A DNA stretch of 64,000 nt from an uncultured Opitutia bacterium (GTDB taxonomy: Bacteria > Verrucomicrobiota > Verrucomicrobiia > Opitutales > Opitutaceae), in contig CAIPAH010000022.1 of the NCBI GenBank assembly GCA_903862955.1, forward strand, positions 124,001-188,000, written 5' to 3'. Of the stretch, positions 24,794-56,639 are shown in pieces. The position numbers were made by a program, and so were the translations under genes. Position 1 is the stretch's first letter; the number at the start of each line of letters is the position of its first letter. The notes below the pieces were generated by a model. It had not been told where the DNA came from, did not search any database, and saw only the letters and a program-made list of their open reading frames with translations.

Positions 24794-25600
24794 TTACTCG
24801 GCGCGGTGGGTGAAGCCCAGGGCCCGCGCGGCATTCTGGCCGAGGATTTTCCGCTTCGCCTCCTCGGGGATCTGCGCGAACAGCACGCGGCCGAGCTGTG
24901 ATGCCTGGTCGAGGAACACGGCGTCGCTGCCCCAGATGACCTTGTCTTCCAGGCCCGACGCCACGAGGTCCTCGATCAGCCCGCGCGGACACGTGGACAG
25001 ACACAGCTCCACGTAAACCCGCGGATACTGGCGCGCGAACTGCATGTATTTTTCCAGCTCCGCCGAGCCGATGTGCGCCAGCAGCCAGCGAATCCGGGGA
25101 AAACGACGGAAGTAACCCTCGAGTTCGTCGAGCTCCGGGCCAAACACGTGCGCCAGCACCGGCATCGCGTGCTCGTTGGCGAACGCAAAGACCGGCTGGT
25201 AGTTCGGGTGATTGTAGGGCAACCCCGGCCGCGCGCCATACGACCACACCTTCAGGCCTTTGAACCCCGCCGCCTTCGCGCCCGCGAGCTGCGCGGTGAC
25301 TTTCTCCGGATAACCAACGTCCACCACGAAATAGCCGAAGATCCGGTCGGGAAACTCCCTGATCCCGTCAGCGACGAGCGCGTTGCCGTGCTCCGCGTCG
25401 CCGAAGATCGCCGGGATCGCGCTCACGCACGAAAGCAGCACGCCCAGCCGGTCCATCGACGCCACGAGCGCCTTCGCTGTCGGCCGGATGATGGGAAAAT
25501 CGGGTCCGTGGCCAAAGTGCGCGTGCGCGTCGATCAGCATCACATCCTCGAGCGCGCGACCCGACCGGCCCGCCGTCTGGAAATAATCGGGCGAGCTCAT
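24794..25600 (-). CDS. Amidohydrolase-2 family protein, canonical motifs intact
   Basis: MLIDAHAHFGHGP (HxH); VLAHVFGPE; LLAHIGSAE; VIWGSDAVF. Confidence 0.88.
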   Translation of the reverse strand: MSSPDYFQTAGRSGRALEDVMLIDAHAHFGHGPDFPIIRPTAKALVASMDRLGVLLSCVSAIPAIFGDAEHGNALVADGIREFPDRIFGYFVVDVGYPEKVTAQLAGAKAAGFKGLKVWSYGARPGLPYNHPNYQPVFAFANEHAMPVLAHVFGPELDELEGYFRRFPRIRWLLAHIGSAELEKYMQFARQYPRVYVELCLSTCPRGLIEDLVASGLEDKVIWGSDAVFLDQASQLGRVLFAQIPEEAKRKILGQNAARALGFTHRAE

Positions 25601-26355
25601 GGCTTCACCTCCGCCAGCAGCCGCTCGATGTTGCCATGCGCAATGGACGCCCGCGCCGCTTCGGACAGCGGCGCATACGTCAGCAGCGCGATGGACGCCC
25701 CGCCCTCGGCCTCCGGATACGAGGTGCCCCAGACGAAGCGCGCGTGCCCGAATTTCTCCACGAGATCCGGGATGCCCTCGTGCACGGAATACGCGCTGCT
25801 CAGGCAGAGATGCAGCCCCGGGTGCCGTTCCAGCAGTGCATACAGCGAGCGGTGGCGCCCGAGCCGCGGCACCTGCGTGACAATCAGCCGCAGTTTCGGG
25901 AACGCCGTCAGCACCTCCTCGATCTCGTCCAGCGTGATGCCCCGGTAATCCACCAGCAGCGGCAGCCGCGCGTCCGCGCACGCCCCGTAAAGTTTCCCGC
26001 TGCACCACGGCCGGGCCGAAAACATGTGCTCGCGCGGGCTGATCCACCCGATGCGCATGTCGCGCGCCAACTCCCGCGCCAGCATCGTCTCCACCGAGTG
26101 ATCGTCCGGGGAGCCGTCGGGCGTGAGGGCGAACGCCGGGATCCAGCTCCCGCGCCCCGTCGCCTCGCGCGCCAGGACGTCGTTGCCCCAGTGGGGAAAG
26201 TTCTCGATGCACTGCCGGTGACGCACCACTGCCGACGCAATCTCCAGCCGCGCCAGCTCGCGGTCGAGGTCCTCGGCGTCCGGACGAAACAGCGCGAAGG
26301 GCTTGCGCGGAAGTCCGACCAGAACGTCGCAGGCAATGAGCTTGAGCGTGGACAT
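25597..26355 (-). CDS. Amidohydrolase-2-like protein lacking metal/catalytic motifs
   Basis: Fold-level similarity (YRGITLDEIEEVLTAFPKLRLIV, RFVWGTSYPEAEGG, IAHGNIERLL); HxH replaced by ACD and GSD by GTS; 4-bp overlap with 24794..25600. Confidence 0.75.
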   Translation of the reverse strand: MSTLKLIACDVLVGLPRKPFALFRPDAEDLDRELARLEIASAVVRHRQCIENFPHWGNDVLAREATGRGSWIPAFALTPDGSPDDHSVETMLARELARDMRIGWISPREHMFSARPWCSGKLYGACADARLPLLVDYRGITLDEIEEVLTAFPKLRLIVTQVPRLGRHRSLYALLERHPGLHLCLSSAYSVHEGIPDLVEKFGHARFVWGTSYPEAEGGASIALLTYAPLSEAARASIAHGNIERLLAEVKP

Positions 26356-26358
26356 GGA

Positions 26359-28461
26359 TTAGCGCGGGGCGTGAACGTGTCGATGCAGCCAGCCCACGAG
26401 AGCAATTTCCGCGGCGGAGGACAATCCTTCAGCTAAAATCGTGCCGCGCGGTGTGCGCAGCCGCCCACACTGCGACCGGCCCAGCAAGCGCCCCGCCGCG
26501 TCGCGGGCACCCACCACGATCGCCGGCGTGCGGCCCAAGCGCAGCACCTCGGGGAGATCCACCGCGCCCAGGATCCCCGGGAAGAACACGTCCTGCGGCC
26601 AGGCCACCTTCGGCTCCGTCGCCAACCCAGCGAATTCCGCCAGGGGCTCGACGAGCACCAGCCCGCCCACTCCGCCCAGCAAGAACGATGCGAACGCAGC
26701 TACGTTCGCTCCCAGTCCGTGGCCGCCGAGGACGACCTGCTCTTGCCCAACGCCAAATTCCCGCCGCGCCCACGCCACGCAGCGCAGCGCTTCACGCACG
26801 CGCATCGCCATCAGCGAGTCGCCCGTCGCCGCGCTGACATACGCCAGCCAGCGGTCCACCCCGCCCCAGCCCACCACATCCCACGGCGACGGCGTCGGCC
26901 GCGTGTCGCCCCAGCCCGGCAGGTCCACCGTCAGCAGCGCGAGGGGCACGGCCCGCGCGGAAAAGAATCCCACCGCCCGGGTCAGCCAACCCCACTGGTG
27001 CAGCGAGGTCCAGCGCCCGCGGTCGTCGAAATAGACCAGCACCTGCTCGGGTTTCACCGGCGCGAGTCGCCGCACCACCGTCGCCGGCAATTCCCAATCG
27101 CGCCCGCCCCGCAGGCTGATCTCCGCCAGTGAATGCGTCCACAGTCGCGCTGTCCCGCCGCGAACTGCCCGCACCGGCCGCTCCTTCGCCGTGCCCTTCG
27201 GCCAGACCAGTTTCGCCAGGTTCTTCCGGCCGCGTGCCGCATTCGTCTCCGGCCGACGCGCCCGCGCCTCCGCCGCCACAAATTCCGCCATCGTCAGCCC
27301 CCGCGGCGGCCGGCATTCCAAACTCTCCTGCGGCAGCAACCGCACCTCCGGCACCTCCACCCGTGCCCCAGCCGCCTTCCCCATCGCCCATCTCCCATCG
27401 CCCATCGCCGCGGCGCCTGCACGCATCCAGCGCACAAATTCCACCGCCTGCGCCACCGTGTATTCGTGCCCGCAGTCGTCGATGAACACCCGCAGCCGGT
27501 CGACCAGCCCCGCGCCGGCGTAGGCTCGCCGCGCACTGGCGTCCAACGCGCGGAAATGCGCCGGCGTCATCACCGCGTCCCGTCGTCCCATCATCAGGAG
27601 CATCGGGCAAAAACGCGCCGCCAACAGCAGGTCAGCCAGGTTGATGCCGTCGCGATAGCCCCCGAACGACTGCGTCTCCGGGCACGCCGCGTAGCCATTG
27701 CGGATGGGATGCAACGACTCGGGCAGCCCGAAGCACGACGCCCCCACGATGCGCACGCGCGGATCCACGATTGCGCCGCAGATCGACGTCATCCCGCCGC
27801 CCGACACGCCCGTCATCGCCACGCCGCCACGCGCATCCACGTCCGGCCGCCCCACCGAGTAGTCCACCGCCCGCACCGCGTCCGCGAGGAAGAACGCCAT
27901 CGGGTTGTGCCCGCCCAGGTAGCAACGCACGCCGTCGGTGAAATGGTCATTGCCCGCCGTCTTTTCCCCGAAACCCGGCGGATCGAAGGAGACCGTCAGA
28001 AAGCCGTTGGCCGCGAACACCTGTGGCGGGAACTGTTCGCTCGGGTTGTATTTTCCGTTGTGCCCCACCGGCATGATCACCGCGCGCCAGGGTGGCGCCC
28101 AGCGGCGCGGGTCCGGTTTCCACACCGTCGCGTTCACCCACCAGCCGGGCAGCGACTCGAACAGCACGTTTTCCACGCTGAAGCCGCGAAACGTCCGCTC
28201 CGACACCCGCCGCACCCGCACCGGCCCGCGCACGGCGGGAAAGCCCACGCTGCGCAGCGACGTGACGAAGTTCGCCCGCACGCCCGCGCCGTAGCGGCGC
28301 CACTCCGCCGGGGTTTTCAGCTTCGCCCGCGCCGCCTCCCGCGCCGCCAGCTGGCCCAGCGCCGTGGCGGCAATCCGCCGCCGCAGCATCCCGCGCAGGT
28401 CGCCCGCAGGCGCCGGCGGCTGAAAGAGCGGCTCGATGTCCCGGATGTCGTCGGTGGCCAT
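26359..28461 (-). CDS. Tandem alpha/beta-hydrolase (acetylxylan esterase/dienelactone hydrolase-like)
   Basis: Domain 1: VAMTGVSGGGMTSI, MMGRRDAVMTP, DDCGHEYT; domain 2: VVLGGHGLGANVAAF. Confidence 0.8.
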   Translation of the reverse strand: MATDDIRDIEPLFQPPAPAGDLRGMLRRRIAATALGQLAAREAARAKLKTPAEWRRYGAGVRANFVTSLRSVGFPAVRGPVRVRRVSERTFRGFSVENVLFESLPGWWVNATVWKPDPRRWAPPWRAVIMPVGHNGKYNPSEQFPPQVFAANGFLTVSFDPPGFGEKTAGNDHFTDGVRCYLGGHNPMAFFLADAVRAVDYSVGRPDVDARGGVAMTGVSGGGMTSICGAIVDPRVRIVGASCFGLPESLHPIRNGYAACPETQSFGGYRDGINLADLLLAARFCPMLLMMGRRDAVMTPAHFRALDASARRAYAGAGLVDRLRVFIDDCGHEYTVAQAVEFVRWMRAGAAAMGDGRWAMGKAAGARVEVPEVRLLPQESLECRPPRGLTMAEFVAAEARARRPETNAARGRKNLAKLVWPKGTAKERPVRAVRGGTARLWTHSLAEISLRGGRDWELPATVVRRLAPVKPEQVLVYFDDRGRWTSLHQWGWLTRAVGFFSARAVPLALLTVDLPGWGDTRPTPSPWDVVGWGGVDRWLAYVSAATGDSLMAMRVREALRCVAWARREFGVGQEQVVLGGHGLGANVAAFASFLLGGVGGLVLVEPLAEFAGLATEPKVAWPQDVFFPGILGAVDLPEVLRLGRTPAIVVGARDAAGRLLGRSQCGRLRTPRGTILAEGLSSAAEIALVGWLHRHVHAPR

Positions 28462-28471
28462 CGCTTGTCTC

Positions 28472-28529
28472 GTCATTGCGAACGCGAGCAACTCGTCCGC
28501 GCTCTGCTGGCCGGCAGAGTCGCAATGAC
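28472..28529. repeat. GTCATTGCGA inverted-repeat element with nested CTCTGC/GCAGAG palindrome
   Basis: GTCATTGCGA (28472-28481) / TCGCAATGAC (28520-28529), perfect 10-bp arms. Confidence 0.75.
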
Positions 28530-28621
28530 AGGCGGGGAAAAAGCCATGACAGGTCAGACAATTGGCTTGGTCCGCCAACCGAGCCAAGGCTAGTTTTCCC
28601 GCCGGAGCTCCCCACCCCTCG

Positions 28622-30142
28622 ATGAATCCGGACCACATCGTCCTCGCCGTGGCCGCCGACCAACCGGGCCCGAAAATCAGCCGGCACATTTTCGGGCAGT
28701 TTGCCGAGCACCTCGGCAAATGCGTCTACGAGGGCATCTGGATCGGCGAGGACTCGCCCATCCCCAACGTCCGCGGCATCCGCTCCGACGTCGTGGCCGC
28801 CCTGCGGGCGATCAAGGTCCCAAATCTGCGCTGGCCGGGCGGCTGCTTCGCCGACGCCTACCACTGGCGCAATGGCATCGGCCCTCGGGCGCACCGCCCG
28901 CTGATGCGCAACGACACCTGGGGCCTCATCGAGACCAACGCGTTCGGCACGCACGAGTTCCTCGACCTCTGCGCGCAGGTCGGCTGCGAGCCTGTGATCT
29001 GCGGCAACCTCGGCAGCGGCACCGTGCAGGAGATGCGCGACTGGGTGGAATATCTCAACGCGCCCGTCGGCACCGTCCTCGCCAACGAGCGCGCCGCCAA
29101 CGGCCACCCCGCGCCCTACGGCGTGCGCTTCTGGGGCGTCGGCAACGAGAGCTGGGGCTGCGGCGGCGTGATGCGCCCCGAGTATTACGCCGACGAGTTC
29201 CGCCGCTACTCCAACTTCCTCGGCAACTACGAAAAAACCCGCCTCTACCGCGTCGCCACCGGCCCGGCCGTGGACAATTACGCGTGGACCGAGGTCATCA
29301 TGCGCGAATGCACCAACCCGCCCTACAACGGCGCGGTCATGGACGGGCTCTCGCTGCACTACTACATGAACGGCCTCACCCCGCCCGGCAAAGTCGCGCG
29401 CTCGATGCCGACCACGGACTTCGGCGCCGACGACTGGAACCGCGTCATGGCGCACGGCTGGTTCCTCGACGAACTCCTCACGAAGCACAGCGCGATCATG
29501 GACCGCCACGATCCGGACCATCGCATCGGCCTCGTCGTCGACGAATGGGGCGCCTGGTATCTCAACGACTCCGGCCGGCCCGCGAACGAGTATTTCCAGC
29601 AGCAGACCATCCGCGACGCCGTCCTCGCCGCGCTGACACTCAACCTCTTCATCGCCCACGCCGAGCGCGTGTCCATGGCCAACGTCGCGCAAGTCATCAA
29701 CGTGCTCCACTCGATGATCCTGACCTACGGCGAGAAGATGGTCTGCACGCCCAGCTGGCACGTCTTCGGCATGTATGCCCCGCACCAGGACGCCGCGCGT
29801 CTCCCCGTCACGAGCAACGCCCCCCTGCTCCACCACGAGGACGGCTCCTACCCCCGCGTCTCCGCCACCGCCTCCCGCGCCGCCGACGGCGCCATCACCG
29901 TCACCCTCGCCCACACCGACCCCGCCCAGCCCGTCACCATCGAGCTCACGCTCACGGGCCTGCCCTCCGAAGCTTCAGCGAAGGAGGGCAAAATCCTGGT
30001 CGCTCCAAAACTAACCGCGATCAACACCCCGGACGCCCCCAACCAAGTCGCCGCCAAGCCGTGGACGGATTTCAGTTTCGATGGCACCACGCTCATCGCG
30101 ACGCTGCCCCCGGGCTGCGTGGCGGCGGCGACGTTTAGGTAG
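28622..30142 (+). CDS. GH51 alpha-L-arabinofuranosidase
   Basis: SRHIFGQFAEHLGKCVYEGIWIGEDSPIPNVRGIRSDVVAALRAIKVPNLRWPGGCFADAYHW; FWGVGNESWGCGG; VVDEWGAWY. Confidence 0.95.
   Translation: MNPDHIVLAVAADQPGPKISRHIFGQFAEHLGKCVYEGIWIGEDSPIPNVRGIRSDVVAALRAIKVPNLRWPGGCFADAYHWRNGIGPRAHRPLMRNDTWGLIETNAFGTHEFLDLCAQVGCEPVICGNLGSGTVQEMRDWVEYLNAPVGTVLANERAANGHPAPYGVRFWGVGNESWGCGGVMRPEYYADEFRRYSNFLGNYEKTRLYRVATGPAVDNYAWTEVIMRECTNPPYNGAVMDGLSLHYYMNGLTPPGKVARSMPTTDFGADDWNRVMAHGWFLDELLTKHSAIMDRHDPDHRIGLVVDEWGAWYLNDSGRPANEYFQQQTIRDAVLAALTLNLFIAHAERVSMANVAQVINVLHSMILTYGEKMVCTPSWHVFGMYAPHQDAARLPVTSNAPLLHHEDGSYPRVSATASRAADGAITVTLAHTDPAQPVTIELTLTGLPSEASAKEGKILVAPKLTAINTPDAPNQVAAKPWTDFSFDGTTLIATLPPGCVAAATFR
29962..29989. 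repeat. Palindrome inside GH51 coding sequence
   Basis: GCCCTCCGAAGCTTCAGCGAAGGAGGGC. Confidence 0.6.
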
Positions 30143-30152
30143 AGCGTCGCGC

Positions 30153-30932
30153 CTACTTCCTCGCTTCCGGCACCACTTCCGGCGTGCCCACGTTCACTTT
30201 GCCCTCAGGCACCGGGGTCCAGAATTTCACTTCCTTCTCCCGTTCGATGGGCTTGTCGAAATAGGGCGCGCCTTTCTCCAGCAGCGTGGCGCTGATCGCG
30301 TTGAGGTCGCGGTGGTCGGCGTCGTCCGAATACATCGTCGTCATCCACAGCACCAGCGGCTTCGCCTTGGGATCGGCCGGCGGCGGGTATTTGAATGCCG
30401 ACACCTGGATCGCCACCTTCTCGTAGTTCAGCGCCGCCGTCTTGTCCCGCAGGCCCACGAAGCTCTTGTGGTCGACGATCGGGGAGAAGGGCACGGTGTC
30501 CGACAGGTTGGACGGCGCCCGTATGCCCCGCCGGTAATCGTTAATCGGCAGCGAGTCCGGATCCAGGTAGGGATTGATCAGCATGCCCCGGCCATAGAGC
30601 GCGGTGATGACGATTTCGGGCTTCTCATCCTTGCCAATCGGGCGAAATCCCTGCTGCTGCAGCACCCGGTTCAATTGGTCCGCGATGGCCCGCGCGTTGA
30701 CCGGCTTCACCAGTTTTTCGCCGGTGTTGACCGGCTTGACGCTCGCGAGGAAATACCGCCGCAGGCGCTTGTTTTGGTCCTGCGCATACGCCGCGTCCTT
30801 GTCCCGCTTCCCCTTCTCCGTCTTGTCGATGCCGGAGCGAACGGCGACTTCCATGTTTTCGGTCACGCCCACCGCGTAGGCGCCCAGTGACATCAGCCCG
30901 GCGAGCAATCCGGCGAAGAGGTATTTTTTCAT
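30153..30932 (-). CDS. Secreted hypothetical protein, DUF4136-like
   Basis: Signal peptide MKKYLFAGLLAGLMSLGAYAVG; KPVNARAIADQLNRVLQQQGFRPIGKDEKPEIVITALYGRG. Confidence 0.65.
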   Translation of the reverse strand: MKKYLFAGLLAGLMSLGAYAVGVTENMEVAVRSGIDKTEKGKRDKDAAYAQDQNKRLRRYFLASVKPVNTGEKLVKPVNARAIADQLNRVLQQQGFRPIGKDEKPEIVITALYGRGMLINPYLDPDSLPINDYRRGIRAPSNLSDTVPFSPIVDHKSFVGLRDKTAALNYEKVAIQVSAFKYPPPADPKAKPLVLWMTTMYSDDADHRDLNAISATLLEKGAPYFDKPIEREKEVKFWTPVPEGKVNVGTPEVVPEARK

Positions 30933-30989
30933 CGAACAGCAGCCAAACCGATCTCACCTAGACGGTCAAGGCTAGGGATTCGCTCGCCC

Positions 30990-31035
30990 GTAGGTCGGGC
31001 TTTACGCCCGATATCGGGGATAAACCCCGACCTAC
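30990..31035. repeat. GTAGG-type palindromic repeat, copy 3
   Basis: GTAGGTCGGGCTTTACGCCCGATATCGGGGATAAACCCCGACCTAC. Confidence 0.88.
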
Positions 31036-31041
31036 GTCTTT

Positions 31042-32196
31042 TCATGCCCCCGCGGGCGCGCGCAGCAGGTCCAGGTAAACCGCCGCCGCCGTCTTCAGCT
31101 GGTCCAGCGCGATCCACTCGTCCTTCGTGTGCGCCTGCGCGAGGTCGCCGGGGCCGAATACCACCGTCGGCGCGCCGGCCGCGGCGTAATGGCTCGCGTC
31201 GGTCACATACGGCGCACCGCGCCCGGTCGCATCGCAGCCATGGCGCGTCAGCACGGGGCTGATCCACTGGTGAAAGGCCCGGCCCGGCTTGTCGTCCATC
31301 GCGGGCACGACGTAGAGCGAGTCGTGCTCGACGGTGTGACCCGCCAGCGCGGCATCGCGTTCGCGCAGCACCTGCTCGGGGGTTTCGCCCGGCACCGTGC
31401 GGCGGTCCACCTCGATCTCGCAGAGCGCGGGAATGATGTTCACCGCCGTGCCGCCGCGGATGACATTCACGCTCGCCGCCGCCCGGCCCGTCAGCGGGTG
31501 GGCCCGCGTGACCGACGGCACGTATTTCGATTCCAAGGTCTCCACCACCCGCAGCATCGCGGAGATCGCCGACACGCCTTTGCTCGGGTCCGCCGAATGC
31601 GCCGCGCGCCCGCGCGTCGTGGTCTTCCACCGGATCACGCCGTTGTGCGCCACGACCGGCCGCAGCAGCGTGGGCTCGCCCACAATTACGCCGCGCAATT
31701 TCGGCAAGAATTCCTTCAGCTCCGTCTTCGCGAAGGCCATCGCGCCCGTCATGCGGACCTCCTCGTCCACGATGAACGCCAGCGCGGCGTTCCGCGGACG
31801 CCTCGCGTCGCGGGCGTATTCGCGCAGCGCCCACAGCATCGCCGCGCCCGAGCCCTTGGTGTCGCACGCCCCGCGGCCCCACAGCCGGCCGCCCTCGATC
31901 TTCCCGCCGTGCGGCGCGATCGTCATGCCCGCCACGCTCACCGTGTCGAGGTGGCTCTCGAACAGCAGCCACTCGCCGCCCGGCACCGGCTCGCAGGTGA
32001 TGATCAGGTTGCGCGCCGCACTGGCGCTCCCCGGCACGGGCCCGCGACGGGTTTGCAGGCCCCAGCCGCGCGCCAGCCTCTCGAGGTGCGCTGCAAGTTT
32101 CTCCTCCCCATCCGCCGCCCCGCCCACGAGGGGGTTCACAGTGTCAAACGACACCATCTGCGCGAGCAGTTCCTCGAACGATGTGGGGACATTCAT
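31042..32196 (-). CDS. M20 family metallopeptidase/deacetylase (ArgE/DapE-like)
   Basis: LLFESHLDTVSVAG; LWGRGACDTKGSGAAML; IVDEEVRMTGA. Confidence 0.9.
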   Translation of the reverse strand: MNVPTSFEELLAQMVSFDTVNPLVGGAADGEEKLAAHLERLARGWGLQTRRGPVPGSASAARNLIITCEPVPGGEWLLFESHLDTVSVAGMTIAPHGGKIEGGRLWGRGACDTKGSGAAMLWALREYARDARRPRNAALAFIVDEEVRMTGAMAFAKTELKEFLPKLRGVIVGEPTLLRPVVAHNGVIRWKTTTRGRAAHSADPSKGVSAISAMLRVVETLESKYVPSVTRAHPLTGRAAASVNVIRGGTAVNIIPALCEIEVDRRTVPGETPEQVLRERDAALAGHTVEHDSLYVVPAMDDKPGRAFHQWISPVLTRHGCDATGRGAPYVTDASHYAAAGAPTVVFGPGDLAQAHTKDEWIALDQLKTAAAVYLDLLRAPAGA

Positions 32197-32216
32197 AAAC
32201 GATCCGTAAATACCTG

Positions 32217-32284
32217 CCCGCGAATCGCGCGAATAGACACGAAATAGACCGGGAGATTCGCGGTCATTCGCGTGATTCGCGGGG
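32217..32284. repeat. Intergenic palindrome, CGCGAAT word family
   Basis: CCCGCGAATCGCGCGAAT ... ATTCGCGGTCATTCGCGTGATTCGCGGGG. Confidence 0.75.
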
Positions 32285-32302
32285 AGATTCCGTGGAAGCG
32301 CC

Positions 32303-33349
32303 TCATGCCAGCCACTTGTCCCGATTCGCCGCGACAAACGCGTCGTCCGTCAACTCCGGGTAAGCCTTCGCCACGCGCGTCAGTTCCTCGGCCTGGCCGG
32401 GCGAGAGCACTTCGTGCGGGTTCAAACAATTAATCGTCGGCACCAGCCCGCCGCGTCGCAGCACTTCCAGGATGCCCGGGATGCAGCCCTTGAACCCGTT
32501 TGCTGAGTCGAACAGCGCAGCGTTCATGTCCGTCACCGCGATCGCCTTTTCCAGCCAGCGCGCGTCCAGCGTGGCGGACGTCCGCGCCTGCTTGATCTCC
32601 TCCAGCAGCTGCACCGCCGCGCGGGTCCAGACGCCCCAGTGACCCAGCAGGCCGCCCACGATGCGGCGCGTCACCTGAGTGCCATTCCGCTCGAAGGTGA
32701 AAGGCGTGAAGAGGTCCACCACGATGCTGTCGTCGTTGCCGGTGTAGAGCGCGATGTCCTCGCGGCCCGACTCTGCCAGCGCCCGCATCACGTCGATCGT
32801 CTGGTAGCGGTTGAACGGTGCGAGCTTGATTGCGACCACGTTCGGGATCTCCGCGAACTTCCGCCAGAACGAGTAGCCCAACAGCCGTCCGCCCGCCGCC
32901 GGCTGCAGGTAGAAGCCCACGATCGGATACACCTCCGCCACGCGACGGCAGTGCGCGATCATCGCATCCTCGGTGTCGTTCTTGAACGCCGCCATGCTCA
33001 GCAGGCCGGCTTGGTAGCCGAGCGACTTCGCCAGCTCCGCCTCCTTCACCGCCTGCTCCGTGCGTCCGCAAACGCCGGAAATCTTGATGAATGGCCGCGG
33101 CTGCTTTTTCAGCTCCTCGTCGATCGTCCGCGCGGCGAGTTCGAGCACCGGCTTGAACAAGCCGTGCTGCGGTTCGCGGATCTCGAACTGCGTCGAGTGC
33201 ACGCCGACGGCGAGGCCACCGACGCCCGCCGCGACGTAGTAGCGGGTGATGGCGCGCTGGTGGCGCTCGGAGAATTTGCGCTGCGCATCGAGGGCGAGCG
33301 GCTGGGCCGGGATGACGTGGCCGGTGTGGAGGTGGGCGCGGAGGTCCAT
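32303..33349 (-). CDS. Dihydrodipicolinate synthase/N-acetylneuraminate lyase family protein
   Basis: YYVAAGVGGLAVGVHSTQF; KSLGYQAGLLSMAAFKNDTEDAMIAHCRRVAEVYPIVGFYLQP; VVAIKLAPFNRYQT (Schiff-base Lys). Confidence 0.82.
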   Translation of the reverse strand: MDLRAHLHTGHVIPAQPLALDAQRKFSERHQRAITRYYVAAGVGGLAVGVHSTQFEIREPQHGLFKPVLELAARTIDEELKKQPRPFIKISGVCGRTEQAVKEAELAKSLGYQAGLLSMAAFKNDTEDAMIAHCRRVAEVYPIVGFYLQPAAGGRLLGYSFWRKFAEIPNVVAIKLAPFNRYQTIDVMRALAESGREDIALYTGNDDSIVVDLFTPFTFERNGTQVTRRIVGGLLGHWGVWTRAAVQLLEEIKQARTSATLDARWLEKAIAVTDMNAALFDSANGFKGCIPGILEVLRRGGLVPTINCLNPHEVLSPGQAEELTRVAKAYPELTDDAFVAANRDKWLA

Positions 33350-33351
33350 GA

Positions 33352-34380
33352 TCAGAATTTGCCGTCGCGGGTTTCGAAGTGGGTGGGCTTGCCCAGCAGC
33401 TTGCCGCCGACGCGCAGGTGGTCGGCGATCATCGCGATGAGCTGGTCGAGCGACACGGTGGTCGGGCCGAACAGCCGGAGCGACTCGCTCGCATCGGAGT
33501 GCCACGCCGTCGGCGCCGGCGTGCCGGTGAGGATCGGCGTCTTGTTGAAAACCTTCCCGAAGCGTTCGGCCGCATCCTTCAGTGTGACCTTTTCCGCGCC
33601 GGTGACGTTCAGCAGCTTCGGCGGATTCGCCACGTGCTGCAGGCACTGGATGGCCCGCGCGCAGGCATCGCCCTGCCAGATGAAATTGAAGACGTTCATC
33701 GTGATGTCCACCGGCTGGCCGGCGAGGACGCGCTGACCGATGTCCACCAGCACGCCGTAGCGCAACTCGACCGAGTAGTTCAACCGATACATCAGCTGCT
33801 TCGTGCCGTATTTGCGCGCGTAATGAGTGAACACCCGCTCGCGCCCCACACAGGTGCTGGCGTATTCGCCCACGAACGCCACCGGCGTCGCCTCCGTCGC
33901 GCCGCGGCCGTCCACGGGCGTGAACGGATAAACGCAGCCCGTCGAGAAGACCACGAGGCGCGACGCTCGGAACTTCGGCGCCACCAGCGAGGGCACGACC
34001 GTGTTTTGGATCCACGTCTCGTCCGGCGCCGAGTCCGTGCCGAACTTCTGGCCGGCCAGGTATTCCACGTTCGCCACCTCGGGCAGCTTCGCCACCTGCG
34101 CTGGATCCGCGAGGTCACACGAGAGCGGCAGCACGCCGCAGATCTCGAGCTCCCGCTTCGCCTCGGGTCGGCTGAACCGCGACACGCCGTAAACCTTCGC
34201 CTGCTTGCCCGCGGCATCGAGCGCGCGCCGCAGCATCACCGCGGTGCTCGTGCCCATCTTGCCGCCCACGCCGAGCACCATGTAGTCGCCGTCGAGCTGT
34301 TTGACGGCCTCGATGGCGCCCGCGGTGGGCGTCGAGAGCAGCTGTTCAATCGCGTGGTCGTCGAGGGAAGTTTGCGCCAT
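33352..34380 (-). CDS. NAD-dependent epimerase/dehydratase family protein
   Basis: MVLGVGGKMGTSTAVMLRRAL; LVVFSTGCVYPF; LNYSVELRYGVLVDIG. Confidence 0.85.
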   Translation of the reverse strand: MAQTSLDDHAIEQLLSTPTAGAIEAVKQLDGDYMVLGVGGKMGTSTAVMLRRALDAAGKQAKVYGVSRFSRPEAKRELEICGVLPLSCDLADPAQVAKLPEVANVEYLAGQKFGTDSAPDETWIQNTVVPSLVAPKFRASRLVVFSTGCVYPFTPVDGRGATEATPVAFVGEYASTCVGRERVFTHYARKYGTKQLMYRLNYSVELRYGVLVDIGQRVLAGQPVDITMNVFNFIWQGDACARAIQCLQHVANPPKLLNVTGAEKVTLKDAAERFGKVFNKTPILTGTPAPTAWHSDASESLRLFGPTTVSLDQLIAMIADHLRVGGKLLGKPTHFETRDGKF

Positions 34381-34478
34381 GAAAGTGAGCCTCGCACTGT
34401 GCGTGCCACGAACGGCCTTGTCACTCCGTTTTCTGTCGCATAGCTTCACGCAATCCGGCCCGATCGAGCTGCTTCACC

Positions 34479-35252
34479 ATGCGCATCATTGATGTCCACA
34501 CCCACCCGGTTTTCGGCACCAAGGCCACCCCGGCCCAGCTCCAGCGCTGGATCGACCACGGCCGCCGCCACCACATCGTCCACATGATCGTGCTCGGCGA
34601 CGTGCTGCTGTTCGGCCCGACGCCGAACGCCGCACAACTGCGCCACATCAACGACGACACCGCGCGGGCCGCGCGCCTTTTTCCCGACTATTTCACCGCC
34701 TTCTGCTACCTCAACCCGCTCCTCGGTGAACGCGCCGTGATGCGCGAGGTCGAGCGCTGCGTCGCCCAGCCGGGTTTCCGCGGCATCAAGCTCGAGATCG
34801 CCAACAACGCCGCGCATCCGTGCATGCGCCACGTCGCCAAGGCCGCCCGCACCTTCAATTTGCCGGTGCTGCAGCACAGCTGGAGCGTCGTCAATATCCG
34901 CAACAGCCAGCACCAGAGCGATCCGAGCACGACCGCGCTGTTCGCGCGCCGGAATCCCGACGTGAAGATCATCATGGCCCACCTCACCGGCATCGGCTTC
35001 CGCGGCGTGCTCGAGGCCAAGGGCCTGCCCAATCTCTACGTCGACACGTCCGGCGGCTTTCCCGAGGAGGGCCTGATCGAGTATGCCGCCGAGCACCTCG
35101 GCGCCGACCACGTGCTCTACGGCTCCGACCTGCCGATTCGCGAGAACAGCGTCACGATCGGCCGCATCCTCGGCGCCCGGATCTCCGCCGCCGACAAGCA
35201 GCGCATGCTCTTCGGCAACACCGCCCGCCTGCTCAACCTTCCGCTCAACTGA
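34479..35252 (+). CDS. Amidohydrolase-2 family protein, canonical motifs intact
   Basis: MRIIDVHTHPVFG (HxH); LPVLQHSW; IIMAHLTG; VLYGSDLPIRENS. Confidence 0.88.
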   Translation: MRIIDVHTHPVFGTKATPAQLQRWIDHGRRHHIVHMIVLGDVLLFGPTPNAAQLRHINDDTARAARLFPDYFTAFCYLNPLLGERAVMREVERCVAQPGFRGIKLEIANNAAHPCMRHVAKAARTFNLPVLQHSWSVVNIRNSQHQSDPSTTALFARRNPDVKIIMAHLTGIGFRGVLEAKGLPNLYVDTSGGFPEEGLIEYAAEHLGADHVLYGSDLPIRENSVTIGRILGARISAADKQRMLFGNTARLLNLPLN

Positions 35253-35260
35253 GCCCCGCC

Positions 35261-36016
35261 ATGCTGATTGACACCAACGCCAACCTCGGCCCGTGGCCGT
35301 TCACGCCCGTCCCCGACCGTCCTGCGCGCGCCTTCGCCGCCCACCTTGCGGCCAATGGCATCCGCCGCGCGCTCGTGTCGCACCTCGGCGCCGTCTTCCT
35401 GCCCGACCCGATGCCGGCCAACCGCCAGCTCTTCGCCGCCGTCCGCCGCACGCCCGCCCTGCTGCCGGTGCCGATCCTGAATCCCGCGCTGCGCACCTGG
35501 CCCGAGCAGCTCGCCGAGTGCCGCGCCGCCGCCCCCCTCCGCGCCGTCAAGCTGCTGCCCAACTACCACAACTATAATCTGCGGGCGGCCCACCTCACCG
35601 AATTCATGGCCGCGCTCGCCGCCGCCAAGCTGCGGCTCGTGCTCAATGTCCGCCTCGAGGACGAGCGCCACAAGTATTTCGCGATGCGCCTCAAGGGCGT
35701 GCCGGTGAAGCAGCTCGCGCAGTTCCTCGAGCGTTTCCCCAAGCACCACGTCCTCTTCACCGGCATCTACAAGGGCGAGGTCGAGCAGCTCGCACCCAAG
35801 CACGAAAACTTCTCCGTCGAGATCTCCTTCTGCGAGACCACGAACTGCCTCGAGCTGATGCTCCCCAAGTTTCCCGCCCGCCGGCTCATGCTCGGCACGT
35901 GCACGCCCCTGCTTTCCACCCGCGGCGAGGTCGACAAGCTCCGCGGCGCCCACATCCCCGCGCGCGCCAAGGAGCTGATCGGCTCCACCAACGCCCAGCG
36001 CTTCTTCGGCCTCTGA
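35261..36016 (+). CDS. Amidohydrolase-2-like protein lacking metal/catalytic motifs
   Basis: MLIDTNANLGPWPF (NxN instead of HxH); VLNVRLED; VLFTGIYKG; LMLGTCTPL (GTC instead of GSD); starts 8 bp after previous stop. Confidence 0.78.
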   Translation: MLIDTNANLGPWPFTPVPDRPARAFAAHLAANGIRRALVSHLGAVFLPDPMPANRQLFAAVRRTPALLPVPILNPALRTWPEQLAECRAAAPLRAVKLLPNYHNYNLRAAHLTEFMAALAAAKLRLVLNVRLEDERHKYFAMRLKGVPVKQLAQFLERFPKHHVLFTGIYKGEVEQLAPKHENFSVEISFCETTNCLELMLPKFPARRLMLGTCTPLLSTRGEVDKLRGAHIPARAKELIGSTNAQRFFGL

Positions 36017-36022
36017 GTTTCC

Positions 36023-36113
36023 CCCGCGAATCCTGCGAATGGGCGCGAATCCCCGGAAACATTTAAGCTCAGCGAATTGAAGCCCATTCGCGCCACTTCG
36101 CGAAATTCGCGGG
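36023..36113. repeat. Intergenic palindrome, CGCGAAT word family
   Basis: CCCGCGAATCCTGCGAATGGGCGCGAAT ... ATTCGCGCCACTTCGCGAAATTCGCGGG. Confidence 0.8.
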
Positions 36114-36138
36114 CAACTCCACCCCCTCCTCATTTTCC

Positions 36139-37362
36139 ATGAGCACCGCCGCCCCGTCCGCCACCAAGCCTATCGTCGACGAACCCGTGCCGCTCCCCCA
36201 GCGCTGGGGCGCCGCCGAGCTCGCCCGACTCACCGAAATGGTGAAGCAGCCGTCGCTGTTTTACTGGAAGGGCCCGCAGACCACCGCGCTGCTCGGGGAA
36301 TTCCGGAAGCATTACCCGCTGAAATACGCCTTCCCCTGCTCCTCCGGCACCGCCTCGCTCCACATCGCCGTCGCCACGCTGAAGCTGCGCCCGGGCGACG
36401 AGGTCATCACCGCGCCCATCACCGACATGGGTTCCGTCATCGGCATCCTCTACCAGCAGGGCGTGCCGGTCTTCGCCGATCTCGACCCGCATTCCTACAA
36501 CCTCGATCCCGCCGACGTCCGCCGGAAGATCACGGCGAAAACCCGCGCGATCATGGCCGTGCACCTCGCCGGCAACGCCGCGGATCTCACTGCCCTCTCC
36601 GCGATCGCCCGCGAGCACAACCTCATCCTCATCGAGGACTGCGCGCAGTCCTGGGGCGCAAAGCACCGCGGCACGCCTGTCGGCCTCGTCGGCGATTTCG
36701 GCTGCTACTCGCTCAACGATTTCAAGCACATCGCCTGCGGCGACGGCGGCATCGTCGCCACCAACAGCGAGCATTACGGCCCCGGTCTCTCGAAGTGGGG
36801 CGACAAGTCCTACGACCGCGTCGCCGGTGGACGCGAGGTCGAGGAACTCGCGCCCAATTACCGCATCAGCGAGCCGCAGGCCGCCGTCGCCGCCGCCCAG
36901 CTCACCAAGCTCAACGATATCGTTTCGCGCCGCCACCACATCGGGGAGTTGCTCACCTCCCGCCTCGCCGGCGCCCCGGGCGTGATCCCGCCCGCCACCG
37001 CGAAGGGCGACTATCACAGCTACTGGTTCTACATGGTTCGCCTGGAACTCGCCTGCTACTCCGTCCCCCGCGCCGAGCTTTGCACCGCCCTCAACGCCGA
37101 GGGCGTCGCCGTCGGCGCCGGCTACATCCCGCGTCCCGTGTATGCCTATCCGGTCTTCAAGAATCACAATTTCTTCGGCGGCGCCTGGCCCGTCCGCGAT
37201 TTCGGGCTGACCAAAATGGACTACCGCCAGGTCAAGTGCCCCGTCGCCGAGGCCATCCTGGACGACTGCCTCGTCTTCAAGATCACCGAGGCCATGTCCG
37301 ACGCCTACGTCGAGAAAGTCGCCCGCGCCGTCACCACCGTGACGAAGCGCCTGGCGAAGTAG
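36139..37362 (+). CDS. DegT/DnrJ/EryC1/StrS family aminotransferase
   Basis: AFPCSSGTASLHIAVATLKLRPGDEVITAPITDMGS; LIEDCAQSWGAKHRGTPVG; YSLNDFKHIACGDGG. Confidence 0.9.
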   Translation: MSTAAPSATKPIVDEPVPLPQRWGAAELARLTEMVKQPSLFYWKGPQTTALLGEFRKHYPLKYAFPCSSGTASLHIAVATLKLRPGDEVITAPITDMGSVIGILYQQGVPVFADLDPHSYNLDPADVRRKITAKTRAIMAVHLAGNAADLTALSAIAREHNLILIEDCAQSWGAKHRGTPVGLVGDFGCYSLNDFKHIACGDGGIVATNSEHYGPGLSKWGDKSYDRVAGGREVEELAPNYRISEPQAAVAAAQLTKLNDIVSRRHHIGELLTSRLAGAPGVIPPATAKGDYHSYWFYMVRLELACYSVPRAELCTALNAEGVAVGAGYIPRPVYAYPVFKNHNFFGGAWPVRDFGLTKMDYRQVKCPVAEAILDDCLVFKITEAMSDAYVEKVARAVTTVTKRLAK

Positions 37363-37451
37363 GAGGCGAAGCCTCCCAAGCCGTCGGGGCGCAGTCTCAC
37401 TGCACCCACCTTGGGGCATCCCACCCAGCGTAACCGGAAAAATCGTTGCCA

Positions 37452-37506
37452 AGCCGGAAGCCAGGAAACCAAGAAAGTTCCGTTCCTGGATTCCTGGCTT
37501 CCGGCT
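37452..37506. repeat. Perfect 16-bp inverted repeat upstream of GH38 gene
   Basis: AGCCGGAAGCCAGGAA (37452-37467) / TTCCTGGCTTCCGGCT (37491-37506). Confidence 0.85.
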
Positions 37507-37617
37507 AAAAAAATCCTTCTCCCTGTCATCTGCCGCAACCAGCTTGCCGTCACCCTCCCGCTTCCTCCAAGTCTCATTCGACCGCCCCGTTCCCCGCGTT
37601 ACCCTCTCCCCATTTCA

Positions 37618-39768
37618 ATGCGCACGATCCACATCGTCTTCAATGCCCACATCGATCCTGTCTGGCTCTGGCCGTGGACGGCCGGCGTCGATGAGGCCCT
37701 CAACACGTGTTACACGATGTGCAACACGCTCGACCGTCACCCCGACATCATCTTCACGCGGGGCGAGGCCTGGGTCTACGAGCAGGTGCGCCGCCACGAT
37801 CCCGCACTGTTCAAGCGCATCAAGGCCCACATCCGCGCCGGCCGCTGGTCCGTCGTCGGCGGCTGGTGGATCCAGCCCGATTGCAACCTCCCCAGCGCCG
37901 AAAACATGGCGAAGCAGATCGAGATCGGCCGCGACTGGTTCAAGCAGCACCTCGGGCTCTTCCCCAAGATCGGCTACAACGTCGACTCTTTCGGCCACAC
38001 CGCCGCGCTCCCTGACATCCTCTCCGCCCACGGCCAGCACAGCTACGTGATGATGCGCCCCATGGCCCACGAGACGAAGCTGCCCGCGAACATCTTCCGC
38101 TGGCGCGGCCGCCCCGGTGGCAAGATCGTGAACACCTTCCGCATTTCCTACGGCTACGCCACGATCTTCCCGCCCAACCTCGAGTGGGTCGAGTCGTCGC
38201 TCCAGCCGCTTCCCGCCAACGTGAATCACACGATGTGCTTCCTCGGCGTCGGCGACCACGGCGGCGGTCCCAACGAGCACATGATCGAGTGGGTCCGCGC
38301 GAACCGCGACGCCATCCCCGACGCCCGCATGGAATTCTCCTCGCCCGAGCGCTTCTTCCGCGCGCTGCAGCCCGAGCTGAAACACCTCCCGCTCGTCACC
38401 GGCGAGCTGCAGATGCACGCCATCGGTTGCTACACCGGCCACCGTCCCGTGAAACTCGGCGTCCGCCGCGCCGAGAACATGCTGGCCCTCGCCGGTCGCG
38501 CCCTCGCCCATGTCCCGCCCGCCGCCCGCCGCGCTCCCCAATCCGCGCTCGCCGAGTCGTGGCGCACGCTCTGCTTCAACTCCTTCCATGATACGCTCGG
38601 CGGCAGTTGCACGCCCAGCGCCGCCCGCGCCGCGGACGACCAGCTCGCCGGCGCCAAGGCCGCCGCCGAGACCGTGCTCAGCGAGGCGTTCCGCCAGAAG
38701 GCCCACGCCCTCCCCGCCGACCAACGGCAGCGCCTCGTCCTCGCGAATTACTCGGGCGCAAAATTCTCCGACTTCATCGAGCACGAGCCGTGGCTCGAGT
38801 GGACGCATTGGAAACCCGACTGGTGTCTGCTCAACGAGAAGAACCAGCTCGTGCCGCACCAAATCATCGAGCCCGAGACGCTCATGCCCGACACGGTGCG
38901 TATCCTGTTCCCCGCCACGATCGACGCCGGCAAGTTCCACACGGTCCGCATCGCGCGCAACGCTGCTGGCAAGGTCGCGAAACTCAAGGGCGCGGCTCCC
39001 GACTTCACGTTGGCCGTCGACGCCACCGGGCAAGGCACGCTCACTCCCGCAGCCGGCCCAGCCTGTGCGCTGCCTGAGCTGAAGCTCATCGAGGAAAAGT
39101 CTGACACGTGGTCCCATGGACTCGACCGCTTTGGCGGCCCGCAGCTCGACCACGCGCATTGGAGCGCGCCCATGCAGGTTGAGAATGGACCGATTCGCAC
39201 GGCGTGGCGCGTCGACGGCACCATCGGCTCCAGCCGCATCTGCGCCGACTGGCGCCGCTACCTCGGCCAGGCTTTCTACGAGCTCCGCCTGCGCGTCACC
39301 TGGCACGAGCACCACAAGCTCCTCCGGCTCTCGTGGACGCCCGGCGCCGGCATCGCGTCGCGCGACGACGGCATTTCCGGCGGCGGCCTCCCGCGCGCCA
39401 GTGACGGCCGCGAGCTGCCCCTCCGCGACCGCTCGCTGCTGCTGCTCGATAACGGTACCCGCGCCGGCCTCGTGGCGCCGGAAATCTTCGCCCTCAGCGG
39501 CGACCCATCCGCGGTGCATCTCACCCTGCTGCGCTCCTGCCCGTTCGCGCACCACGACCCGAAAATCCTGCCCGAGAAGCTCGAACACTACGCCTGGCAG
39601 GATCAGGGCGAGCACACCTTCCTGTTCCGCTACTTCCCCGCGGGCAAGATCACCGCCAAGGAACTCGACCGTCACGCCCTCCTGCTCCAGCAACGCCCCG
39701 TCATCGCCGACCTCACCCGCGGCATGCCCGAGCGCCCCTACAAGGACGAGCCATCCTGGCCGTCGTGA
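37618..39768 (+). CDS. GH38 alpha-mannosidase-like glycoside hydrolase
   Basis: IHIVFNAHIDPVWLWPWTAGVDE; WWIQPDCNLPSAENMAKQIEIGRDWF; GYNVDSFGHTAALPDILSAHG; SFHDTLGGSC. Confidence 0.93.
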   Translation: MRTIHIVFNAHIDPVWLWPWTAGVDEALNTCYTMCNTLDRHPDIIFTRGEAWVYEQVRRHDPALFKRIKAHIRAGRWSVVGGWWIQPDCNLPSAENMAKQIEIGRDWFKQHLGLFPKIGYNVDSFGHTAALPDILSAHGQHSYVMMRPMAHETKLPANIFRWRGRPGGKIVNTFRISYGYATIFPPNLEWVESSLQPLPANVNHTMCFLGVGDHGGGPNEHMIEWVRANRDAIPDARMEFSSPERFFRALQPELKHLPLVTGELQMHAIGCYTGHRPVKLGVRRAENMLALAGRALAHVPPAARRAPQSALAESWRTLCFNSFHDTLGGSCTPSAARAADDQLAGAKAAAETVLSEAFRQKAHALPADQRQRLVLANYSGAKFSDFIEHEPWLEWTHWKPDWCLLNEKNQLVPHQIIEPETLMPDTVRILFPATIDAGKFHTVRIARNAAGKVAKLKGAAPDFTLAVDATGQGTLTPAAGPACALPELKLIEEKSDTWSHGLDRFGGPQLDHAHWSAPMQVENGPIRTAWRVDGTIGSSRICADWRRYLGQAFYELRLRVTWHEHHKLLRLSWTPGAGIASRDDGISGGGLPRASDGRELPLRDRSLLLLDNGTRAGLVAPEIFALSGDPSAVHLTLLRSCPFAHHDPKILPEKLEHYAWQDQGEHTFLFRYFPAGKITAKELDRHALLLQQRPVIADLTRGMPERPYKDEPSWPS

Positions 39769-56539: not shown

Positions 56540-56639
56540 CTTGCCCGCAAATTACACGAATGACCGCGAATCTCAGCCACCCCACATTTGTGAACCCGCG
56601 TCGAACCATTCGCGTCAATTCGCGTCATTCGCGGGCAAG
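56540..56639. repeat. Intergenic palindrome, CGCGAAT/ACGAAT word family
   Basis: CTTGCCCGCAAATTACACGAATGACCGCGAAT ... ATTCGCGTCAATTCGCGTCATTCGCGGGCAAG. Confidence 0.82.

Follow-up and report, generated by a model that had tools for sequence, protein, structure and literature searches.

Two described systems come closest to the gene pair that we analyzed. ACMSD, a decarboxylase of the amidohydrolase family Amidohydro_2 (PF04909), is inactive as a monomer, and each of its subunits lends a substrate-binding arginine to the active site of its neighbor (PMC9021598, PMC11650718). Because of this exchange, a partner that is itself dead can still be essential. In Pseudomonas aeruginosa, a pseudo-dihydroorotase (pDHO/PyrC') is inactive yet required for ATCase activity (PMC7053772). 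Here we describe adjacent genes, A and B, within a 64,000-nucleotide stretch of DNA from an uncultured Opitutia bacterium (hereafter, the window).

Both open reading frames lie where the initial annotation had placed them, with the start of B 8 bp past the stop of A. Gene A passes the curated Pfam cut-off for PF04909 (26.4 bits) clearly, and gene B just passes it (Table 1); NCBIfam offers no usable family for either. The families of A and B align end to end in a profile-profile comparison (hhalign probability 97). As first noted for this locus, A carries the metal-ligand motifs IDVHTHP, LQHSW, MAHLTG, and YGSDLP, which supply the complete Amidohydro_2 set (HxH, H, H, D), whereas the aligned segments of B read IDTNANLGPWPF, LNVRLEDER, LFTGIYKG, and LGTCTP. 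The initial annotation counted four ligand positions as substituted in B. All of them are indeed lost, but the count was an understatement: HxH counts double, so there are five positions, and B keeps none. The NxN of B is confined to close relatives of the source genome. Across the B family as a whole, 86% of proteins have asparagine in place of the first ligand histidine, with variation at the second position.

Table 1. Amidohydrolase pairs and neighboring genes in the window
Feature	Coordinates	Strand	Details
Gene A, metal-competent Amidohydro_2 member	34479..35252	+	257 aa; PF04909 80.9 bits; ligands HHHHD
Gene B, metal-less (degenerate) Amidohydro_2 member	35261..36016	+	251 aa; PF04909 27.5 bits; ligand positions NNNGC
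Pair 1, degenerate member (N-type)	25597..26355	-	252 aa; ligand positions DLDQS; N-profile 91 bits; first in transcript
Pair 1, competent member (C-type)	24794..25600	-	Ligands HHHHD; C-profile 161 bits; ATGA overlap with degenerate gene
DegT/DnrJ/EryC1 aminotransferase	36139..37362	+	PF01041 255 bits; in 52/80 A-B loci
SDR/NAD-dependent epimerase-like, divergent neighbor	33352..34380	-	PF01370 26.1 bits; in 51/80 A-B loci
DHDPS-family (aldolase/lyase-like), divergent neighbor	32303..33349	-	PF00701 26 bits; in 50/80 A-B loci
M20-like peptidase (family assigned by eye)	31042..32196	-	In 32/80 A-B loci; frequent neighbor within Opitutaceae

We drew 80 named A-type loci from one-per-species public genomes with a profile of A, which was used as the query because B does not have enough conserved stretches for a degenerate scan. 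B lies directly downstream of A in 78 of these loci. At one locus (L127), B is on the same contig as A but convergent and about 2 kb apart, and at another (L128/G047) the two genes are on different contigs of one genome. Pair members are separated by 1-2.5 kb in two Planctomycetota genomes (G585:C634 and G579:C480). Spacing is mostly tight: among 76 same-strand pairs, the genes overlap by 4 bp (ATGA) in 27 and are 1-11 bp apart in 42. Most of the hosts belong to Opitutaceae or elsewhere in Opitutia (Puniceicoccaceae, Pelagicoccus), and they are joined by metagenome-assembled genomes (MAGs) carrying the fallible labels Rhodothermales, Bacteroidetes, Lentisphaeria, Brocadiaceae, Neomarinimicrobiota, and Bacillota. 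When 177 genomes were drawn order-wide, no strong B match came from a genome lacking A, and no strong A match from one lacking B.

A sister set of pairs, larger than the A-B set, is present in Verrucomicrobiota and Planctomycetota. Here a degenerate member (N) precedes a competent member (C), as separate genes or fused into proteins of 530-630 aa. The initial annotation had pointed to a second competent/degenerate pair on the opposite strand of the window, and this pair (pair 1) is real, with its N-type and C-type ligand positions as listed in Table 1. Its degenerate-first order is the reverse of that of A and B (pair 2). Searching for relatives of pair 1 yielded single open reading frames of 534-559 aa with an N-terminal degenerate and a C-terminal competent domain. 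An alignment of these fusions had matches in 81 of 291 genomes of the Verrucomicrobiota phylum and in 32 of 248 genomes of the phylum of the Brocadiaceae MAG, some of these matches being competent domains only. The latter phylum also holds more N-C fusions, tandem N-C pairs, and A-B pairs (loci L239 and L241-L261). All 40 of the loci that we inspected closely have one N and one C domain, fused or adjacent, with the degenerate domain first. Fusion in the opposite order was found once, in a Lentisphaeria MAG (L238:1937-3496, plus strand), where a 520-aa protein joins a competent domain to a B-type degenerate domain bearing the GRWPF motif of B.

The five ligand columns were read in one alignment of 262 domains. 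The full ligand set is present in 82 of 82 A domains (a count that omits one unpaired single) and 48 of 50 C domains; it is found in 0 of 77 B and 0 of 52 N domains. The C exceptions belong to fused proteins (L200 and L201) in which the third ligand histidine is an aspartate, and an altered metal or chemistry is possible in these two. As a control, we inspected 20 extra loci around further matches. The strong C-type genes among them were paired in six of six cases, three intermediate loci were competent-then-degenerate pairs, and the other 11 were competent relatives with no degenerate neighbor. No unpaired degenerate member was found among the loci inspected, including these 20, whereas unpaired competent relatives were common. 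A lone N-type match (G284:C20) had been a candidate for such an unpaired member and was found to be paired on inspection. Two of the unpaired competent proteins (L236 and L237), which have no degenerate neighbor, form the sister group of the A family. With degenerate members always paired in this sample and competent relatives often unpaired, the dependence runs one way: the dead partner needs a live one nearby.

To ask how strongly B is constrained, we compared pairwise NG86 dN/dS values, which are rough in absolute terms owing to codon bias at high G+C but are alike for the two genes and clearly in the range of constraint: mostly 0.07-0.4 for B (median 0.305, 173 pairs), with a median of 0.298 for A. 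B is thus under purifying selection like that on A, with omega well below 1. Its length is 245-263 aa throughout the A-B loci, and a single B gene among them (L075:10769-11528) is split by an internal stop. The partners have also diverged together. Mirror-tree correlations, which partly reflect shared species history, were 0.85 for 77 A/B pairs and 0.93 for 48 C/N pairs, and none of 2,000 permutations gave a value as high.

Collectively, these results indicate that the pairing of a live and a dead amidohydrolase is an ancient arrangement of adjacent or fused genes in several bacterial phyla. The cross-phylum survey of adjacent PF04909 genes proposed in the initial annotation, with ligands scored in each member, found pairs to be widespread rather than confined to the source genome, and the relaxed selection or frequent frameshifts that it named as contrary evidence did not appear, B being constrained and disrupted in one copy only. 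Its central claim, that the pairing is a conserved architecture and not decay of one gene, is borne out by adjacency in nearly all A-B loci, by natural fusions, and by the selection on B and its intact length. Because an ancient pairing has been kept across phyla, a function for the dead partner is almost certain.

Despite the loss of its ligands, B is modeled by AlphaFold2 as confidently as A (mean pLDDT 96.0 and pTM 0.93 for B; 95.3 and 0.93 for A). When the models were compared with the PDB using Foldseek, the matches listed were members of the Amidohydro_2 family, with E values of about 1e-13 for A and 1e-10 for B. Gamma-resorcylate decarboxylase, ACMSD, and CAC3332 were among the fold matches of A, and B matched the same ACMSD/gamma-resorcylate decarboxylase group. 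A sequence search of the PDB with B alone gave no match, and known structures were reached via profile and fold only. From the ligand columns, the confident model, and the family matches, B is predicted to be an intact TIM barrel minus its metal site. The combination expected of a pseudoenzyme, catalytic residues gone and fold kept, is therefore what the alignment and the model of B both display. We also looked for an alternative metal site in B and found no invariant histidine set.

B does have invariant residues of other kinds (D4, G10, W12, P100, R131, D134, R136, and P216 in 67 sequences), including two arginines after strand 5. The conserved columns of N differ from those of B, and N lacks the RxxDER motif. 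At 10-11 alignment columns past the fourth ligand, A (99%) and N (75%) have a conserved arginine that C and B do not share. For the N-C pairs, where the degenerate domain keeps this residue and the competent domain does not, the alignment is suggestive of an ACMSD-like split between partners. The A-B pairs follow this less cleanly, as A keeps the arginine itself and the two invariant arginines of B lie elsewhere. Taken together, the alignments are only a loose fit to a shared active site, which may be taken as a hypothesis.

The genes around the pairs are similar in kind across loci. In addition to those in Table 1, a sodium:solute symporter and a heparinase-like gene each occur in 18-20 of the 80 A-B loci. 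In Pelagicoccus, the neighbors are instead a class III aminotransferase, a sodium:solute symporter, and a heparinase II/III-like protein; one such locus (L111:11667-16757), in which the A-B pair is followed by the symporter, the heparinase II/III-like gene, and the aminotransferase, is possibly a polysaccharide-linked version of the pathway. N-C fusions adjoin a class III or DegT aminotransferase, in two cases with a DHDPS-like gene as well, so that the fused protein replaces the separate pair beside the same kinds of genes. Among 98 neighbors of N-C pairs, DegT was the commonest family (18 proteins); other frequent neighbors were PLP-enzyme families including class I/II aminotransferases, xylose-isomerase-like TIM barrels, AraC regulators, and Gfo/Idh/MocA oxidoreductases. 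The neighbor families of both sets point to sugar or amino-sugar metabolism. We found nothing relevant in the open-access literature on a named system or pathway for A-B.

Within the window, positions 26359-39768 have carbohydrate-related surroundings, as judged by eye from translations: an AXE1/dienelactone-hydrolase-like protein adjoins pair 1, and an arabinofuranosidase-like protein (28562-30142) and an alpha-mannosidase-like protein (37411-39768) are also encoded. Downstream of B, the stretch before the aminotransferase gene (36017-36138) contains an imperfect inverted repeat of the 'gcgaat / attcgc' type, with 28-nt arms that are 82% complementary. A 19-mer resembling it is found again at 56606 and 1313.

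We consider it likely that A and B form an obligate enzyme/pseudoenzyme heteromer that acts with the aminotransferase, the DHDPS-like lyase, and the SDR. This reading draws on the ligand split, the obligate linkage, the fusions in both orders, purifying selection, co-divergence, the predicted fold of B, the precedent of ACMSD, and the conserved gene neighborhood, whose kinds of genes also adjoin N-C; physical contact between A and B, the residues that cross the interface, B's role, and the substrate and reaction are inferred. A would be the catalytic, metal-dependent TIM-barrel subunit. B would be a pseudoenzyme, an old offshoot of the same family that retained the fold without the metal site and gained invariant surface and pocket residues of its own (D4, R131, D134, R136, and P216). 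A would depend on B for its assembly, and plausibly also for a complete active site or for substrate binding across the interface, and B would have been retained for this reason. After duplication in an ACMSD-like homodimer, one copy may lose its own site and still serve its partner. Together with the PLP aminotransferase, the lyase, and the SDR, the complex would most likely break down or interconvert a sugar that is carboxylated or carries an amino group.

Other explanations for B were weighed. Linkage, fusion, and co-divergence would also fit two enzymes acting in sequence, and B may have been repurposed for another, metal-independent step of the same pathway, making the pair or fusion a bifunctional enzyme. 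The invariant charged residues D4, R131, D134, and R136, which lie on the strand-1/strand-5 side that once held the metal site, are consistent with this, as are neighbors that resemble one pathway. The N-type lineage, however, is without RxxDER, and since the conserved columns of B and N differ, one new chemistry common to all degenerate members is improbable; we regard repurposing as unlikely overall. Less probable again is a role for B in regulation or ligand sensing, as a switch on A and not as a component of its active site. Regulation is a frequent function of pseudoenzyme partners, and the barrel pocket of B retains conserved residues, but the fixed one-to-one pairing and the fusions fit a structural need equally well. 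That B is merely a decaying duplicate of A, as its lost ligands and marginal Pfam score might suggest, has next to no probability: selection, constant length with one disrupted copy, conservation across phyla, and a position in the tree far from A rule it out.

A separate question, compatible with the heteromer reading, is whether pairs 1 and 2 lost their metal ligands independently, so that the architecture evolved at least two times. The initial annotation called pair 2 an independent second instance, and the opposite gene orders and differing conserved motifs of B and N could be taken that way. Placing A and B in one clade, with a separate loss, gave topologies 19-20 log units worse that were nevertheless not rejected (AU p = 0.176 and 0.18). 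Trees built from 104 and 113 domains, however, contain a branch (SH-aLRT 95 and 100) that sets all degenerate members apart from the competent ones, the unpaired competent relatives included, and support for this branch was 99.8 after we dropped the ligand columns and long-branch rows. Although the AU test does not reject a separate loss, this one-sided grouping leaves the word independent unsupported, and we think separate losses rather doubtful. From the trees, the two pairs would most simply be two descendants of one ancient pair. A shared 'PxxHxY' motif was also considered as proof of common degenerate ancestry and was dropped, as a similar stretch occurs in some competent C members.

A broader form of the heteromer reading, which we offer tentatively and with somewhat less than even confidence, is that one ancient lineage of pseudo-amidohydrolases, whose members in several phyla are obligate partners of a metal-competent paralog, makes half-active heterodimers that go back to an ACMSD-like homodimer. 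Second-subunit residues would be fed by the dead member into the only working site, the partners would be encoded as operon pairs or as fusions in either order, and the arrangement would be tied to PLP aminotransferase pathways. Enzyme/pseudoenzyme pairs are already known, and we found no description in the open-access literature of a dedicated metal-less partner within Amidohydro_2. With over 120 co-diverged pairs, as well as fusions, in several phyla, the family is well suited to testing how a half-active heterodimer arises from a homodimer. Because family-level annotation puts A and B both under 'amidohydrolase', the dead members of such pairs are likely misannotated wherever they are present. 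The pair also marks an uncharacterized pathway common in Opitutaceae, comprising the aminotransferase, the DHDPS-like lyase, the SDR, and the amidohydrolase pair.

Compared with described systems, A-B would resemble pDHO/PyrC', an inactive protein of the amidohydrolase superfamily that its partner enzyme needs for activity (PMC7053772). The two differ in that pDHO belongs to another subfamily and its partner, ATCase, has an unrelated fold rather than being a live paralog; no transcarbamoylase was present among the neighbors examined, and the partner of B is a paralogous amidohydrolase. The closest solved relative of A is CAC3332 (PDB 3cjp), an uncharacterized amidohydrolase of Clostridium (profile E value 5.6e-16; TM scores 0.81/0.79). 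By fold and by profile, A and B each match best to ACMSD and the gamma-resorcylate, 2,3-dihydroxybenzoate, and 5-carboxyvanillate decarboxylases of PF04909, a group that shares its metal-ligand pattern with A. The likeness is one of sequence and predicted fold, with identities of only about 12-20%. These decarboxylases are homo-oligomers of identical active subunits, whereas here the partner of the competent protein is a dedicated metal-less paralog.
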